A stretch of DNA of 36,297 bases from a virus. Both the position numbers and the translations under genes were made by a program. Of the stretch, positions 4,019-19,085 are shown one piece after another; positions within the stretch are counted from its first letter, which is position 1; each line of letters starts with the position of its first letter. The notes under the pieces are model-generated. The model saw nothing but the letters and a program-made list of their open reading frames with translations, was not told the origin of the DNA and made no database searches. Location of the stretch: positions 1 through 36,297 of IMG/VR virus record IMGVR_UViG_3300042922_000698; one strand, written 5' to 3'.

Positions 4019-6481
4019 TTAATCCTCCCAGCCCATTTTGCTGCGGTTCTGCGCCTGGCGGTTGCGCTGCTCTTTTGCCTGGTGCTGCGCCATCAGCGCC
4101 ATTGCGTCGTCTTTGGTCATACCCTCATGCATGTTGATTTCATACTGATAAGTATTCTGGCTGCGATCGGTGAATCCGCTCCCAGCTGACGGGGCTGAAA
4201 CCGGGCGGTAAGGCGCACCACCATAAGCGATGTTGTATTGCAGCCCGCTGGTATCTGCGCCCGCGCCACCGGTTGCTACCGGATCCGGGGACGGGACTTT
4301 GTCTTTGAGGCCATCGGATTTCGTGTCGATAATGCCGAGCTTATCCAGCACCCAGTTGATGCCGCCCATAAGCTGATCGAGCGCGTGGCTCGGGATTTTC
4401 AGCGCCTCAGCCAGCATGTTGCCGAACTTCTTACCCATGTCTCCGGCGGCGGCAAGTTCGGTCTGCGTGGATTTCACCGGCTCCAGCAGCTTGCCGAACC
4501 AGTCCCACAGCTCTTTGACCTTGCCGCCTACCCACTCAAAAACCGGCTTCAGCGAACCGAAGGAATCACTGATCGGCCCCATCGCTGCGGTAAACCCTTC
4601 GGCCATGCCTGCTATAAAGGCGCTGATAGGCTCCCAGTATTTGCGCACCAGTAGCGCCCCGGCCACGATTGCCGCCACGACGGCCACCACCGGCAGCGTG
4701 ATAGCGCCGAGCGCGGCCGTAATAGCTCCGCCAGCGATGCTGAATGCCGTGCCGAGAAACCCCGCACCGGCAATCAGGGTATTCACGCCCGCAATTACCG
4801 GCCAGGCTACCAGCCCGATTGCGCCCAGCGCCCCGGCCAGCATCAGCCCGCCCATTACCACTTTTGCTATACCGCCTGCCAGCGCAGGGTTAGCTTTAAT
4901 CCAGTTATCAACCGTCAGCAGCAGTGCCGCCGTGTCCTGGGTAAGTGCGCGCAGGCTGCCGTCGTTCTGATCAAAGAGATCGGTGCCAATAGCCTCATAA
5001 GCAGACTGCAGCTCTTTCAGGTCGCCGCCGAGATTATCCTGCATGACCTGGACCAGCTCGGCCGTTTTACCATCAGAGGCTTTAAACGTGGCGGTCAGCT
5101 GATCGAGCTTACCGGTTGAGGCGGCGGTCATCAGCACGGCGGCCGATGAGCTGGCCTCCTCGCCGAATATGGTTTTCATATACTCGGCGCGCTGACCTGT
5201 TCCCAGCTTGTGTCTATCAAAACTCGCCTGCATTTCTTTCAGGATGGTGAATATCGGGCGGGTATTTCCTTTGCCGTCTGCCGTTTTAATCCCCAGCTCT
5301 TTGATAGCCTTGGATGATTCGCCGGTAGGAGCCTGCAGCCTGCTCAGTACGGCGCGGCTTCCCGTACCGGCCATTGAGCCGGTTATTTTGGCATCGTGCA
5401 GAGCGCCGACCATCGCCGCCGCCTGCTCGATGCTGACACCTGCGTTTTTCGCTACCGGGGCGACGTAGGTCAGCGAGTCGCTGAGCCCGTCAAAGTCAGC
5501 GGCCGTTTTATTCATGGTCATCGACAGCACGTCGCCGATGTGTGCCACCTTATCGTTTGAAAGCTGGAAGGCTGACTTCATCCCCATCAGCAGCCCGGCG
5601 TTTTCCTCCATCGTGCGCTTGTTTGCCAGCGCCATGTTGAGCGTAACCGGCGTAACGGCCTGTACGGCAGCGGCATCACCGCCGCCTTTGGCGATAACGA
5701 TTTGCGCGCCTGCGGCATCATCGGCAGAGGCGGCGGTTGTATCACCCAGCTGACGCGCCTGCGCACGCAGGGCTTTCATTTCCGGCGATTCTTTCCCCAC
5801 GCCGAGCACGGCCTGCAGCTCGGAATTTTTCTGTGCAAAATCAAACCCCGGCATCAGCAGCGAGGTTGCTGCCATGCCGCCAACCGTGGCAGCACCGATA
5901 CCGGCCGCGCCCATGTTCCGCACCTTGCCTGACAGCTCCTGCCCTTTGCGGTAGCGTTCGCTGGTCTGGTTCAGCCGCTCCTGCTGCGCATTCAGCCGCT
6001 GCAGCTCCATTTTCTGCCGACTCAGACTGACGGTTGCCTGCGCTGAGGCGGATTTCAGGCGCTTCTGCTCGCTGCTTAGGGCTTTGGTGGAAATCCCCGC
6101 GGCGTTAAGTGCCTCGCGCTGCTGCTGCACCGAAAGGCGCAGGCTGTTGGACTTCGTCTGCAGCTCCGACGCTGCCTGGCGGGCCTTTTCCAGTGCGCGG
6201 GCCTGCTGTGTTGTCGGGCGCTCCGTGTTTTTAAACTGCACGGCCAGCGCCGCTACCTCCTGTTTTGCATCTTTGAGGCTCTGCTGCGTGACGGCCAGCT
6301 GCGCACTGGCCTTGCGGAAGCCATCAATTTTCCCCGCCTGTGCATCCAGCTCCTTAATCGTCGTCTGCGTCTGGCGTATGTCAGATGACAGATTTTTGGC
6401 AGCGGTCTGTACGGCTTTGAAGGGGCGCGAGGCTTTGTCTACAGCATTCAGCAGCACCTGAACCTTGAGGTTATTGCTCAT
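4019..6481 (-). CDS. T: Tail tape measure protein gpT
   Basis: 820 residues, as expected for the P2 tape measure protein, whose length sets tail length. The N-terminal 180 residues are a long Gln/Lys/Glu/Ala-rich coiled coil starting MSNNLKVQVLLNAVDKASRP. A TP901-type core follows (ALRAQARQLGDTTAASADDAA, then the Met/Gly/Ala-rich LLMGMKSAFQLS). Three or so strongly hydrophobic helices lie near residues 545-625 and could enter the host membrane during DNA ejection. The C-terminal end is polar (HQAKEQRNRQAQNRSKMGWED). The start overlaps the end of the E' frame by 11 bases, the usual P2 arrangement. Confidence 0.95.
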   Translation of the reverse strand: MSNNLKVQVLLNAVDKASRPFKAVQTAAKNLSSDIRQTQTTIKELDAQAGKIDGFRKASAQLAVTQQSLKDAKQEVAALAVQFKNTERPTTQQARALEKARQAASELQTKSNSLRLSVQQQREALNAAGISTKALSSEQKRLKSASAQATVSLSRQKMELQRLNAQQERLNQTSERYRKGQELSGKVRNMGAAGIGAATVGGMAATSLLMPGFDFAQKNSELQAVLGVGKESPEMKALRAQARQLGDTTAASADDAAGAQIVIAKGGGDAAAVQAVTPVTLNMALANKRTMEENAGLLMGMKSAFQLSNDKVAHIGDVLSMTMNKTAADFDGLSDSLTYVAPVAKNAGVSIEQAAAMVGALHDAKITGSMAGTGSRAVLSRLQAPTGESSKAIKELGIKTADGKGNTRPIFTILKEMQASFDRHKLGTGQRAEYMKTIFGEEASSSAAVLMTAASTGKLDQLTATFKASDGKTAELVQVMQDNLGGDLKELQSAYEAIGTDLFDQNDGSLRALTQDTAALLLTVDNWIKANPALAGGIAKVVMGGLMLAGALGAIGLVAWPVIAGVNTLIAGAGFLGTAFSIAGGAITAALGAITLPVVAVVAAIVAGALLVRKYWEPISAFIAGMAEGFTAAMGPISDSFGSLKPVFEWVGGKVKELWDWFGKLLEPVKSTQTELAAAGDMGKKFGNMLAEALKIPSHALDQLMGGINWVLDKLGIIDTKSDGLKDKVPSPDPVATGGAGADTSGLQYNIAYGGAPYRPVSAPSAGSGFTDRSQNTYQYEINMHEGMTKDDAMALMAQHQAKEQRNRQAQNRSKMGWED

Positions 6482-13058: not shown

Positions 13059-13409
13059 TCAGCTCACAGGAACGGTTAAGGAAAAAGGCTGCGCGCTGTC
13101 GGTGCGGTTGCCGGACAGCTCAACCACCATTGCGCCGCTGATATCCGACTCAAAGCTGATGGCGGTCAGCTTTACGCGCGGCTCCCATTTCAGGATCGCC
13201 ATATAGCAGGCCGACATAATCTGCAGGCGCAGCGCCTCGTTTTGCGGCTGGTCAATCAGCGCAGATAAAAGCGAACCATACTGGCGACGCATTACCCTGG
13301 TGCCGACAGGGGTCAGCAGAATGTCACGCACTGACTGACGGATATGATCGAGGTCGGTCAGCGCGCCGCCGGTTTCCCGGTTCATGCCGATATATTTCGC
13401 AGTTGTCAT
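13059..13409 (-). CDS. W: Baseplate wedge protein gpW (gp25-like)
   Basis: 116 residues (P2 gpW 115), of the T4 gp25 lysozyme-like baseplate family. The central block DHIRQSVRDILLTPVGTRVMRRQYGS is its hallmark, including the conserved ILLTPxGxR stretch that forms the sheath-initiation surface. Its start overlaps the end of V by four bases. Confidence 0.95.
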   Translation of the reverse strand: MTTAKYIGMNRETGGALTDLDHIRQSVRDILLTPVGTRVMRRQYGSLLSALIDQPQNEALRLQIMSACYMAILKWEPRVKLTAISFESDISGAMVVELSGNRTDSAQPFSLTVPVS

Positions 13410-13990
13410 ATCGGTTCCCCCGTCTGGCCGCCGCTATCGCCCGGATGGATATGCGAATGCAGTACCTTGCCGTTTGATGAAAGGTTGCCGCCGGTATGCG
13501 TAACGTTGCCTTTCATGGTGCCGCCCTTAGTGACTTCCAGCTGCGCGGTTTTGAGCAGCGTTGTGCATTCTACTTCTGGCGAGTCAAAGAGGATTTTTAC
13601 CGCCGCTTTAATGATTGCCGTCTGTATGCCGGTTGCGATCAACGCGCCGTTTTCCGGCTCGTACTCGATCACCGCACCGTCAGGAAATGACCAGTGCAGT
13701 GCATCGGCCGAGGCAGACGGAGCCGGGTTGGCATCCGAGAAAATGCCCGGCAGCACAAAGCCGGTATCGAGTTCGCCGCCGAGGCACAAAACAAGCACCT
13801 GTTCACCCACTGACGGCGCATTCCAGGAACGGGTTTTACCCGCGCGGGCGCTCAGCCAGTGCAGCCAGTTAGTTGTGTTTTTTCCGGTATCGACACGGCA
13901 GATCCCGCCGTCGAGATTGACGGCCGACACGGTTCCGATGCGGATTAGGTTGCGCAGCAGGCGCTGAATTTCAGAGATTTGTTCATTCAT
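13406..13990 (-). CDS. V: Baseplate spike protein gpV
   Basis: 194 residues (P2 gpV 211). It forms the trimeric membrane-piercing spike. The N-terminal OB-fold part includes LIRIGTVSAVNLDGGICRVD and NAPSVGEQVLVLCLGGELD; a beta-helix region follows (KTAQLEVTKGGTMKGNVTHT). The C-terminal tip has the HxH metal motif (LHSHIHPGD) that binds iron in the P2 spike. No clear Shine-Dalgarno is visible. V begins the V-W-J-I-H-G transcript, directly downstream of the accessory pair at 14103-15465. Confidence 0.94.
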   Translation of the reverse strand: MNEQISEIQRLLRNLIRIGTVSAVNLDGGICRVDTGKNTTNWLHWLSARAGKTRSWNAPSVGEQVLVLCLGGELDTGFVLPGIFSDANPAPSASADALHWSFPDGAVIEYEPENGALIATGIQTAIIKAAVKILFDSPEVECTTLLKTAQLEVTKGGTMKGNVTHTGGNLSSNGKVLHSHIHPGDSGGQTGEPI

Positions 13991-14083
13991 GTTCTGATTA
14001 TCAAATGGAGGCTAGAAAATCAGAAGGAAGTGTTGTTTGTTCTTCAACTAACAAGATGTGCAGGAGTGGGAGTATAAAGCCTA

Positions 14084-14104
14084 ATGGGGGCACCCCCCCA
14101 TTTT
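14084..14104. terminator. Perfect GC hairpin after the accessory nuclease pair
   Basis: AATGGGGG and CCCCCATT form an 8-bp stem around a three-base loop, starting just after the stop codon of the minus-strand gene at 14103. On the plus strand it is followed by TTATTCTT, on the minus strand only by AGGCTTTAT, so as a minus-strand terminator it is imperfect. Confidence 0.5.
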
Positions 14105-14522
14105 ATTCTTCTGTAGGTAGTAATTTATTCACTTCTAACCAAAAGTATCCTGTTGAAATGATGTCACCCAAAACACCTATCAAACCCTCCTCATCCCAAC
14201 AATCATTACGCTTACCATCAAATTCAATGACAAAGGGATAACCATCAGCTGCTTGCTCCCATTTTGCTAAGTTCGTTTCGTTACCTTTTTTGCTCCTGAG
14301 GACTAATCTGCCTCTTTTCTTTTTGGAAGACCTATCTGGTGAAGAGTTGGCGAATTCCACTAAAAAGCCAAGTGAAGCTCTTTCAAAACTAACTTCCCCT
14401 CCTGTTTTTAGCTTAATTTCTTGACTTAACTCGTCAAAGATAGAATTAATTTCGTCTAGATTTTTTCTGGCTGCTTCAGCATTTTTTATACCATTTTCTA
14501 TTGACAACGAGAACCTTGACAT
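14103..14522 (-). CDS. Accessory protein of unknown function, partner of EEP nuclease
   Basis: 139 residues of no family I recognise. The first 40 residues look like a helical pair (ENGIKNAEAARKNLDEINSIF), the middle is basic (SSKKKRGRLVLRSKKG), and the C-terminal part is compact and acidic/aromatic (YPFVIEFDGKRNDCWDEEGL), ending in a likely helix. It starts seven bases after the stop of the EEP nuclease gene, in the same AT-rich block, so the two are a unit. The position between S and V is the orf30 locus of P2. An accessory, immunity or regulatory partner role is inference only. Confidence 0.8.
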   Translation of the reverse strand: MSRFSLSIENGIKNAEAARKNLDEINSIFDELSQEIKLKTGGEVSFERASLGFLVEFANSSPDRSSKKKRGRLVLRSKKGNETNLAKWEQAADGYPFVIEFDGKRNDCWDEEGLIGVLGDIISTGYFWLEVNKLLPTEE

Positions 14523-14529
14523 ATGAACC

Positions 14530-15465
14530 TCAACTTATTGATATTGAACCAATTATTGGCAAGTGATCGAAATTATTGTCACTGCTCATTATTAATTTAA
14601 CATATTTCTCATCAGATATAACCTTACAGTTCTCTTCATTAATGTAATAATCTCCAGCCTTAAGAAAATCCCCTGAAAATAATATTTGATCGAAGCTAGA
14701 CCACGAATTTCTATTATTAGCCTTGCTATAGCACGTTCCAAAATCATGCTTCGCATCACTTAAACTAAACACACTCCTTGCATATAAAGTACGCCAAAAA
14801 GGGTTATAAAGCCAGTAATCAGGAGAAGTTATAACTAGTGAGCGGTCGTTAGTAGCCCGAAGATTATCAAAGATTGTCTCAGAGTAGGGATCATCATTAT
14901 AATCTCCTAGCAATATAAAACTTTCATTATTTTCCTGTAGATTAACAACACCCATCCTGAGACCAATCGAGCATTCATTCCTAAAGGACTTGCTAATATC
15001 TTGCAGGCGGCTGGGCCAATGAGATAATAAAAAATGAATTGGCTTCTCATTTTTGTCAAATATCACTGAGAAAGTTTGCGCCACTTTGATTCTAGATGTG
15101 CCAACTCGGCCTACATGAGTAAGTCCTTTCTCTATTTGAACATGTTCGGGTAAATATAAACATGCCAAATCAAACTTGCTACCCGTTGGTGTTGAATCAT
15201 TTGCAATGATTGACTCAACTCCAATATCTTTTGCCATTTCTTCTATCAAGGTAAATGAGTTTACGTTAATCTCACAGAGAAAAATAATAGCAAGTGCATG
15301 CTCTTCAAATAATGACTTTATTATTTCAAAAGCGGAAATTACCATCTCTGCATCTACAGGATCATTTTGACCTGGAGGAGATATGGCGCAATTCCAGAAA
15401 CCGAATGAAAAGTTCTTTCCCAAATGTTCCTCGATAGTCAGTAGTTTGAAAGAAACATTATACAT
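14530..15465 (-). CDS. Endonuclease/exonuclease/phosphatase (EEP) family protein
   Basis: 311 residues from the ATG at 15465, one base after the S stop codon (a TTG at 15495 inside S is the alternative). All EEP catalytic motifs are present: Asn25 (FWNCA), Glu65 (LCEI), His149 (LLSHWPSR), Asp188 and Asn190 (LLGDYNDDP), Asp259 (SSFDQIL) and Asp300-His301 (FDHLP). The family is Mg-dependent and cuts DNA, RNA or phosphoesters; substrate here is unknown. No signal peptide. AT-rich and unlike the phage tail genes on either side, so it is acquired cargo. No late function is known to need it; defence or lysogenic conversion is inferred. Confidence 0.88.
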   Translation of the reverse strand: MYNVSFKLLTIEEHLGKNFSFGFWNCAISPPGQNDPVDAEMVISAFEIIKSLFEEHALAIIFLCEINVNSFTLIEEMAKDIGVESIIANDSTPTGSKFDLACLYLPEHVQIEKGLTHVGRVGTSRIKVAQTFSVIFDKNEKPIHFLLSHWPSRLQDISKSFRNECSIGLRMGVVNLQENNESFILLGDYNDDPYSETIFDNLRATNDRSLVITSPDYWLYNPFWRTLYARSVFSLSDAKHDFGTCYSKANNRNSWSSFDQILFSGDFLKAGDYYINEENCKVISDEKYVKLIMSSDNNFDHLPIIGSISIS

Positions 15466-15466
15466 A

Positions 15467-15952
15467 TTAAAATGATTTATAGAAAATCCGAGCAATTAGT
15501 TGCATGTCATTTTCGCTGATGCCCAGCAGGGGGCGGGCCTCATACCGCACTTCTTTACCTTTGCGAGACGGCCGGTCACGCAGCCCGTAATGATGCACGC
15601 GGGCCATGCGCTGCACGTTACCCGCAAACTCGATCACTGCCTCATTCGGGCTGGCCTTCGTCTTCATGTACTTAGCGGTGCGCAGCTTTGCGAACATCTC
15701 GCGCTTTATCCGGCCCTTTTTGCTGCGCACCGGCTGAGTTTTGCTGCGCACCGGCTGAGTTTTGCTGCGCACCGGCTGCGTTTTGCGGGGCTTAAACGGC
15801 GTGCCGTCTGGAGCCTGCTGCCGCTTAATGTTCTGCTGCTGACTCGCTCGCAGCTTGCGGCCAATGTTGCGCGCCATTTCTTTGCGCGCCGGGGCTGACA
15901 GGCTGCTGATAAGCGCCTCAAGCCGATCATTTATCAGCTGCAGTTCGCTCAT
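15467..15952 (-). CDS. S: Tail completion protein gpS
   Basis: 161 residues (P2 gpS 150). It is required to complete tails and join them to heads. The family blocks are clear: KKGRIKREMFAKLRTAKYMK and RMARVHHYGLRDRPSRKG. Between residues about 57 and 78 the heptapeptide TQPVRSK occurs three times, encoded by a 21-bp tandem repeat. The last few residues (ARIFYKSF) adjoin the inserted AT-rich cassette and may have been altered by its insertion. It overlaps R by four bases. Confidence 0.93.
   Translation of the reverse strand: MSELQLINDRLEALISSLSAPARKEMARNIGRKLRASQQQNIKRQQAPDGTPFKPRKTQPVRSKTQPVRSKTQPVRSKKGRIKREMFAKLRTAKYMKTKASPNEAVIEFAGNVQRMARVHHYGLRDRPSRKGKEVRYEARPLLGISENDMQLIARIFYKSF
15718..15780 (-). 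repeat. Three 21-bp tandem repeats inside gene S
   Basis: Units at 15718-15738, 15739-15759 and 15760-15780; the first two are identical and the third differs by one base. 21 bp keeps the frame and gives TQPVRSK three times in a basic linker of gpS. Confidence 0.95.
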
Positions 15953-17854: not shown

Positions 17855-18324
17855 CAGAGCAGATCCACAATGCAGCCAGGCTTACCGGCGATGCGGCTGA
17901 TACTGAATCGCGCGTCGCGCCAGTACTCGTCGGCGCTGGCCTCGATTTCGCCCGCCTTTTTTGTGCCGCTGGCGTCATAGCCGCGATAGCGCTCAACGAT
18001 GGTGGCGGCGGTCAGCGCGCCGACGGCGGCAAGGTAGGCCGTAATCTTTTCGCTCTCGTCGTCCAGCGACTCAGCAGGCACTTCGGCCAGCGCCTTAAAG
18101 CCCGCTGCCATCTGCGCGGCGCGCCAGTCGTACAGCTCGGCGTTCACTTCAGAAATTGCCGTCTTCACGGCCAGGCGCAGGCGCTGCGCCGTGACCGTTC
18201 CCTCATAGCGCAGTGAATCGCGCAGCTGCAGCAGGTCAACGTCAGGCCAGAAAAACGTATTTTTTACCGGCGGCTCGGCAGCGTCTGCCGGTCGCGGGGC
18301 GGGGATAACAACCGTGTTATTCAT
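17854..18324 (-). CDS. L: Head completion protein gpL
   Basis: 156 residues from the ATG at 18324, which is preceded by AAAGG at six bases; an in-frame GTG at 18369 has no ribosome site. P2 gpL is 169 residues. The conserved part begins FFWPDVDLLQLRDSLRYEGT and includes AATIVERYRGYDASG and the end ADEYWRDARFSISRI. gpL attaches to the portal vertex after packaging. Confidence 0.92.
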   Translation of the reverse strand: MNNTVVIPAPRPADAAEPPVKNTFFWPDVDLLQLRDSLRYEGTVTAQRLRLAVKTAISEVNAELYDWRAAQMAAGFKALAEVPAESLDDESEKITAYLAAVGALTAATIVERYRGYDASGTKKAGEIEASADEYWRDARFSISRIAGKPGCIVDLL

Positions 18325-18416
18325 AATCGGCCTTTGAAATAGGTGGGCGGTGGAGGACGGCGCAGACACTGAAAGTGCGTTGCCGTCCTGCCGCCCGTGC
18401 GCGGGGTCGCGTTCGG

Positions 18417-19085
18417 TCAGCGGCTGGCGATGGCCTGTTTTTTCATCGCCGTTCCCAGCCGCTCAATGTCTTTTTTGACGCCGCAGCCGTCGTGCAGCTG
18501 ATGCGCCCTTACAAGGTGGGTCATCGCCTCCGAAGCCCTGCCCGCATCGCGAAACACATACCCGGTTATCTTGTGCAGCTTGGCGCGCACCTGATCGGGC
18601 ATGTCTTCAGATTCCGTCATCGCAATGGTTGCCAGCAGCGGGTCAACATCAACCGGCTCTTTTGCCGTCCAGGCGCGCGTTGTCGCGCTGGCGACTTCCT
18701 CGGCCAGCAGGTAAGGCAGGCTGGCGCGCTTAAAGCCGTCTGGCGACACAAGGCCATGCGTCAGCGCGTACCGGGCAATCTCCAGCGCGCCGGGCACGTC
18801 GCCCGCATCGAGCCGCCAGATCATGACGGTCATCAGCACGGCATCCTGTGCGCCTTTGCCTTTCTCCAGCACGCCGGACACCCACGGCAGGTACTCAGGT
18901 AGCAGCTGACGCTTCATTTCCGCCTTGCGCTCGTTCGAGTGCACTTTCTTTAGGCGGCGCTTGTCGTCATTGAGCTTGATGAGCATCTGCTCATAGCCGC
19001 TGGCATGGCGCAGCGGGTTGTCGGCGTTCTGCGAGGCTTCGATAGCCTGCTGGCGCATGCGGTGACGTCGGGCAGGGCTTAACAT
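18417..19085 (-). CDS. M: Terminase endonuclease subunit gpM
   Basis: 222 residues (P2 gpM 247). It is the smaller terminase subunit in P2 and makes the staggered cuts at cos. Family blocks: MLSPARRHRMRQQAIEAS at the start, KKVHSNERKAEMKRQLLPEYLPWV, and VLMTVMIWRLDAGDVPGALE. It follows the capsid gene by three bases, as in P2. Confidence 0.94.
   Translation of the reverse strand: MLSPARRHRMRQQAIEASQNADNPLRHASGYEQMLIKLNDDKRRLKKVHSNERKAEMKRQLLPEYLPWVSGVLEKGKGAQDAVLMTVMIWRLDAGDVPGALEIARYALTHGLVSPDGFKRASLPYLLAEEVASATTRAWTAKEPVDVDPLLATIAMTESEDMPDQVRAKLHKITGYVFRDAGRASEAMTHLVRAHQLHDGCGVKKDIERLGTAMKKQAIASR

Follow-up and report, generated by a model that had tools for sequence, protein, structure and literature searches.

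A paired predicted EEP phosphodiesterase and small partner gene carried by phages, plasmids and chromosomes: a candidate anti-phage module

The window analysed here, i.e. the whole stretch of 36,297 nucleotides of IMG/VR record IMGVR_UViG_3300042922_000698, represents a P2-like phage that carries, between two of its late genes, a cassette consisting of a gene for a predicted EEP phosphodiesterase and a gene for a small partner protein. Both genes are intact, as is the active site of the enzyme, and the two are strictly paired across replicons, co-vary, are under purifying selection and occur in mobile or defence-type locations. We propose that the EEP is an effector restrained by its partner in a toxin-antitoxin-like module that acts against phages or competitors, a model to which we assign roughly even chances. 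A wider proposal, held with somewhat less confidence than that, is that the cassette represents an undescribed, patchily widespread anti-phage system with an EEP effector, and that Acinetobacter baumannii phages have acquired its partner for use as a counter-defence antidote. The features of the window to which the text refers are as follows:

14530-15465, minus strand: gene for a predicted EEP (DNase-I-fold) phosphodiesterase of 311 aa (intact open reading frame, Pfam match and AlphaFold2 model)
14523-14532, minus strand: junction of the EEP and partner genes (EEP stop codon TGA plus seven bases)
14103-14522, minus strand: partner gene, 139 aa (open reading frame with ATG at 14522, and predicted structure)
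15467-15952, minus strand: late gene S, tail completion/virion morphogenesis (annotation of relatives)
13406-13990, minus strand: late gene V, baseplate assembly (annotation of relatives)
13991-15512, no strand assigned: inserted cargo, approximate extent (homology break against Erwinia phage ENT90)

The EEP reading frame runs on the minus strand from an ATG at 15465 to a TGA at 14530-14532, with an upstream TTG at 15495 as an alternative start that would yield a protein of 321 aa. Its product matches Pfam Exo_endo_phos_3 (PF19580) with E = 1.9e-11 and 44 bits against a cut-off of 27. The claim of the first-pass annotation that all catalytic residues are present was borne out by an alignment of 47 relatives, in which N25, E65, H149, D188, N190, D259 and H301 never vary and the conservation of D300 is 90% or more; as judged from this alignment, these residues constitute the catalytic set known from EEP enzymes of the DNase I/ExoIII type. 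The protein thereby carries the Asn, Glu, His, Asp-x-Asn, Asp and Asp-His set by which the superfamily is recognised, together with its DNase-I fold (Z about 22), which was modelled by AlphaFold2 with a pLDDT of 88 and a pTM of 0.88. The top structure matches of this model are nocturnin, TDP2, DNase I and ExoIII-like (Mth0212/ExoIII) enzymes, with Z scores of 21-22.6, while inspection by eye revealed no evident N-terminal export signal. The EEP is probably a metal-dependent phosphodiesterase and likely a nucleic-acid cutter. Nocturnin, however, is both its top structural match and its top PDB profile match (E = 4e-7), which would accord with a non-nucleolytic effector whose target, like that of nocturnin, is a small molecule (for example NADP(H)), or else some other phosphoester; since nocturnin, TDP2, DNase I and the ExoIII-like enzymes all lie within 1.5 Z of each other, the substrate is not readable from the fold, and we regard a non-nucleolytic activity as improbable. 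While the likeness to the EEP superfamily (PF19580; nocturnin, TDP2, DNase I, Mth0212/ExoIII) thus extends to the fold and the full catalytic set, the cassette EEP differs from the superfamily at large in belonging to a separate clade that has motifs of its own (SHWPSR and YNPFW) and is tied to a partner gene, whereas the more distant relatives sampled lack the partner.

The partner gene follows the EEP stop codon after seven bases, the spacing noted at first pass, and a TGAGG run resembling a Shine-Dalgarno sequence, as inferred from the letters, overlaps that stop codon; at the EEP start no comparable run is visible. The two genes have a GC content of 36% and 37%, as against 57% for the flanking S and V, so that their AT-richness and their placement between these late genes (annotated in relatives as gpR, gpS and gpV/W/J) were likewise upheld. 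The P2 ORF30 slot is located between V and S (PMC6823313). Erwinia phage ENT90, which is approximately 77% identical over the matched parts, lacks the cassette: its homology ends within the last S codons (~15513) and restarts at the V start codon (13990), and the final S codons are unlike those of ENT90, as if supplied by the cargo. In E. coli prophages the same slot is nearly empty, or holds two small genes or a pentapeptide-repeat gene, while it contains a regulator and a reverse transcriptase in Yersinia phage YenM_56.17 (L169:2457-3681) and a 354-aa open reading frame in another Yersinia phage. Since relatives have other genes or none in this slot, the EEP-partner cassette may be regarded as swappable cargo. 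The cassette is oriented in the late-gene direction, in which it differs from the E. coli cargo examined, and the stretch immediately upstream of the EEP gene yielded no sigma-70-like promoter. On both grounds its expression in a lysogen is putative, which counts against the proposed role in conflict. Gene S itself was observed to contain an in-frame 21-base tandem repeat at 15718-15786 (3.3 copies, 97% match) that encodes a repeated TQPVRSK.

Of the two conditions that together would have refuted the pair at first pass, one, an absence of linkage elsewhere, does not hold: linkage was found to be near-absolute in phages, plasmids and chromosomes. A scan of IMG/VR provided 72 loci, to which further loci from phage and plasmid collections were added, and after removal of near-duplicates 67 non-redundant EEPs remained, mostly from phages and plasmids. 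An open reading frame of the partner family is adjacent in 63 of these, the partner starting between -20 and +11 bases from the EEP end in 61 of the 63 pairs. In two of the four unpaired cases the partner is nonetheless visible, in an open frame at a contig end (L031) or inside a frame that had been started too early (L070), while the other two are an EEP at a contig end (L044) and a more distantly related EEP whose neighbour is a different gene (L083). In a scan of GTDB genomes a search of open reading frames showed the partner beside 37 of the 38-39 EEPs scoring above 140 bits and beside none of the generic, more distant EEPs below 120 bits (about 40). The exception among the high-scoring EEPs has the pair in swapped order, with the partner upstream of the EEP (L112, 9440-10996), and a further locus holds a broken, low-scoring EEP copy (L104). 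On profile matches, the partner belongs to a large family whose members almost always accompany EEPs of this clade, and two adjacent genes kept together across replicons, as in toxin-antitoxin modules, are found here by adjacency.

As the GTDB and IMG/VR loci had all been selected through the EEP, partner and EEP profiles were run separately on Pseudomonas. Among 298 genomes these scans identified eight partners and eight EEPs, in the same seven genomes and all adjacent, a result that is less surprising, though still surprising, given that the pair had been known beforehand from two of the genomes (G008 and G009). Among 295 Enterobacterales genomes the partner was found in five, four times paired and once alone, while in a class-wide sample of 369 genomes the pair was present in the centre genome only; the pair is rare and patchy. 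DNA queries with the lambdoid locus L006 and with plasmid pEC904 produced no match in 5,426 complete E. coli genomes, and screens centred on E. coli could thus easily miss it.

The evolution of both genes points in the same direction. A mirror-tree comparison yielded r = 0.68 (n = 96), a value reached by none of 1000 permutations (best 0.22); the correlation reflects shared descent in part and means only that both genes move together. The dN/dS ratio is below 0.2 for both genes wherever it is computable, most partner comparisons having a saturated dS, and both are under purifying selection where dS can be measured. The dN of the partner is 1.7 to 6 times that of the EEP. These linkage and co-variation data are fitted equally by the main rival to the antidote model, namely an obligate nuclease of two subunits, one of them the partner, which would confer specificity or activation by recruiting the EEP to, or switching it on against, invading DNA or RNA; the faster evolution of the partner is something that specificity subunits can show. 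We consider this rival unlikely overall, although it is better placed than the other alternatives.

The partner was modelled with a pLDDT of 91 and a pTM of 0.81, with a predicted layout of an N-terminal helix (residues 3-39), a five-strand sheet and two C-terminal helices, and it carries a conserved G-Y-P motif (G94, P96). According to this model it has a confident fold with no clear structural relative in the PDB: Foldseek returned nothing significant against the PDB (best E 0.21), and the sequence profile gave no PDB match with E < 0.2. Mediator subunits (VIA-align Z up to 8.9) and frataxin (6.3) were set aside as relatives, and the VIA-align matches were not used, since such Z scores fall in the range typical of common arrangements. 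Similarly, an LcrG-type chaperone was rejected (Pfam LcrG 14.2 bits, under the gathering score of 24.1), as were homologues in Bacillus phage G and Edwardsiella phage pEt-SU that the fold had suggested and the profile did not confirm. At their C-terminus, five partners (L045, L049, L053, L054 and L079) continue into long, histone-H1-like tails with an abundance of Ala, Lys and Pro. These tails hint at nucleic-acid binding, which would be compatible with either an antidote or a subunit; as they could fit a specificity subunit that binds nucleic acid, they count against the antidote model and in favour of the two-subunit nuclease.

A search of BFVD with the partner model identified an uncharacterised protein of Acinetobacter phage IME-AB2 (TM 0.60/0.72, E 0.02):

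18290-18640 of IME-AB2 (JX976549, L164), minus strand: stand-alone partner homologue, 116 aa (fold and profile)

This protein scores 52-54 bits against the partner profile, where accepted plasmid and phage partners (L007 and L001) reach 53.0 and 54.9 bits and the best unrelated open reading frame in the whole set reaches 9, and profile-profile comparison gave a probability of 98.2% over 113 columns. The homologue is present in 58 Acinetobacter phage records of the IME-AB2 type, as variants about 67% identical; three of these genomes were searched for an EEP and yielded none. The annotation of IME-AB2 lists no integrase and these phages are apparently lytic, while Acinetobacter, the genus of their hosts, carries the pair. 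The IME-AB2-type protein is accordingly named here as a candidate counter-defence antidote, and partner-only phages would then deploy the partner as an antidote mimic; if the EEP and its partner were instead two subunits of one nuclease, the lone phage partners would be dominant-negative decoys, and their retention by phages, which otherwise speaks for the antidote, would fit as well. Outside these phages the partner also occurs alone at L196/L200. In the Enterobacterales locus L200 (G937:C284:4000-14500) the partner lies at 4669-5205 on the minus strand with no EEP in the 10.5 kb examined, and may be a solitary antidote or a relic.

Damaged loci bear on the same choice. The EEP is frame-broken beside an intact partner in L002, L074 and L121 (L192 being apparently the same genome as L121), which is more easily explained by an antidote than by a subunit of a two-component nuclease, and it is truncated in L081. 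Conversely, in plasmid pEC904 it is the partner that is frame-broken and the EEP that is intact, which counts against a strict toxin-antidote model unless it is a sequencing error, while the partners of L085 and L110, both close to contig ends, are short. The pattern of damage, based on few cases, leans towards loss of the effector with the antidote kept.

The carriers of the pair are diverse. They include a filamentous Vibrio phage, Acinetobacter prophages in which the pair adjoins an integrase, Klebsiella ColRNAI plasmids of 3.5 kb (in pB18185_5, ColRNAI, 3541 bp, the pair is the sole annotated cargo beyond replication genes), a 3.1-kb E. coli plasmid, a 3.3-kb Edwardsiella plasmid and a chromosome-sized Proteus record. 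Small Col-type plasmids thus represent a minimal natural carrier. In a Photobacterium plasmid (L011:1207-10885) the pair stands between integrase/replication genes and the T6SS genes hcp and vgrG. Many tailed phages carry it next to integrases, portal genes, baseplate genes or the P2-type gene A: it follows the P2 gene A protein in L065 and adjoins portal genes in L021, L027 and L037, placements that we infer to be those of the P2 A-Q hotspot, both sides not having been confirmed in each. In L026 the pair adjoins an OLD-family ATPase/TOPRIM gene. Proximity of some copies to replication or integrase genes would be expected if the two genes served phage or plasmid DNA metabolism (replication, repair or packaging) outside any conflict, or were chance cargo; however, the carriers replicate by unrelated modes and relatives of the P2-like carrier lack the cassette altogether, making this explanation very improbable.

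Around chromosomal pairs, neighbouring genes match the PADLOC models DpdF, SduA, PsyrT, CBASS cyclase and 2TM effector, as well as reverse transcriptases, type IV restriction (REase) and methyltransferases. PADLOC families near the chromosomal pairs numbered 149 and 221, as against 46 in a control set around generic EEPs, although these counts are redundant and part of the difference may be taxonomic, the control being drawn from other taxa (largely Bacteroidota MAGs). Measured against this control of different taxa, the pair has its place in defence islands or in the defence hotspots of phages. Its presence on very small plasmids, a filamentous phage and integrated elements would also suit a selfish maintenance (addiction) module of mobile elements with no role in defence. 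Integrated prophages and multicopy Col plasmids have little need of addiction, which makes such a module less favoured; it is also at odds with the defence-gene neighbours and the P2 hotspot positions and leaves the partner genes kept by apparently lytic phages unexplained. We give it little credence.

The defence-type surroundings and the stand-alone partner in apparently lytic phages favour a nuclease plus antidote engaged in phage conflict. The defence or toxin/immunity pair postulated at first pass is partly supported by these two observations and by the linkage, and is the leading hypothesis. Under this antidote model the EEP would act as a metal-dependent phosphodiesterase effector, probably cutting nucleic acid, and the partner as its dedicated antidote or regulator, made from the mRNA of the EEP with translational coupling. 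The partner would bind the EEP and hold it off in the resident cell until an invading phage or plasmid upsets this balance; the freed EEP would then damage the nucleic acid of the invader and/or the host, thereby protecting the host population of the prophage through abortive infection or superinfection exclusion. Catalysis, the nucleic-acid substrate, co-transcription, binding, inhibition, the trigger and phage protection are all steps that we infer, and the effector-first gene order counts against an EEP effector with an antidote.

To our knowledge, no described system has the EEP and this partner as its components. Neither protein matches any model of PADLOC 2.0.0 at E values up to 10, no description of the system was found in NCBIfam or PADLOC, and the main texts of the papers covered on EEP enzymes in defence or toxin-antitoxin systems yielded none, which is weak evidence of absence. 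The cytolethal distending toxin contains an EEP enzyme as its CdtB subunit and shares with the cassette, besides this fold, its status as P2-like phage cargo; however, the cassette has a single small partner rather than CdtA/CdtC, and the pair occurs widely on plasmids and in defence islands. A further parallel is provided by the toxin DarT, a DNA ADP-ribosyltransferase. The DarTG toxin-antitoxin defence, which is countered by the phage antitoxin mimic AdfB, resembles the present case in being a two-gene mobile module for which a lytic phage carries a stand-alone antidote (PMC11481870), although the proteins are unrelated, and the functions of DarTG and AdfB have been assayed whereas those of the EEP-partner pair are predicted. 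The cytolethal distending toxin occupies about 2% of P2-like hotspots (PMC9122126), and the cargo loci of P2-like phages comprise the A-Q hotspot (PMC9122126), the fun locus (PMC9519451) and the reverse transcriptase at ORF30/S-V (Odegrip 2006, cited in PMC9519451). The cassette resembles such loci in that a short insert occupies a constant position among conserved genes, and the EEP pair is not mentioned among P2-like cargo in the portions covered of PMC9122126, PMC9519451 and PMC13092281, supplements aside.

If the proposal is correct, the EEP superfamily would join the nuclease effectors that are under the control of a dedicated partner in phage conflict. The superfamily is familiar from repair, mRNA decay and secreted DNases. 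Furthermore, the stand-alone partner in A. baumannii phages leads to a direct and testable prediction of counter-defence.

Finally, in three Methylococcaceae loci (L087, L090 and L092) two genes that match between the loci in size and order lie immediately ahead of the pair; in L087 they encode a TPR-repeat protein and a DinG-like helicase. A general larger operon with a DinG-like helicase upstream was rejected, as the arrangement was seen in these three loci only and other loci have unrelated genes at that position (peptidase M3, radical SAM, HlyD and transposase); in Methylococcaceae it may represent a larger variant of the module.
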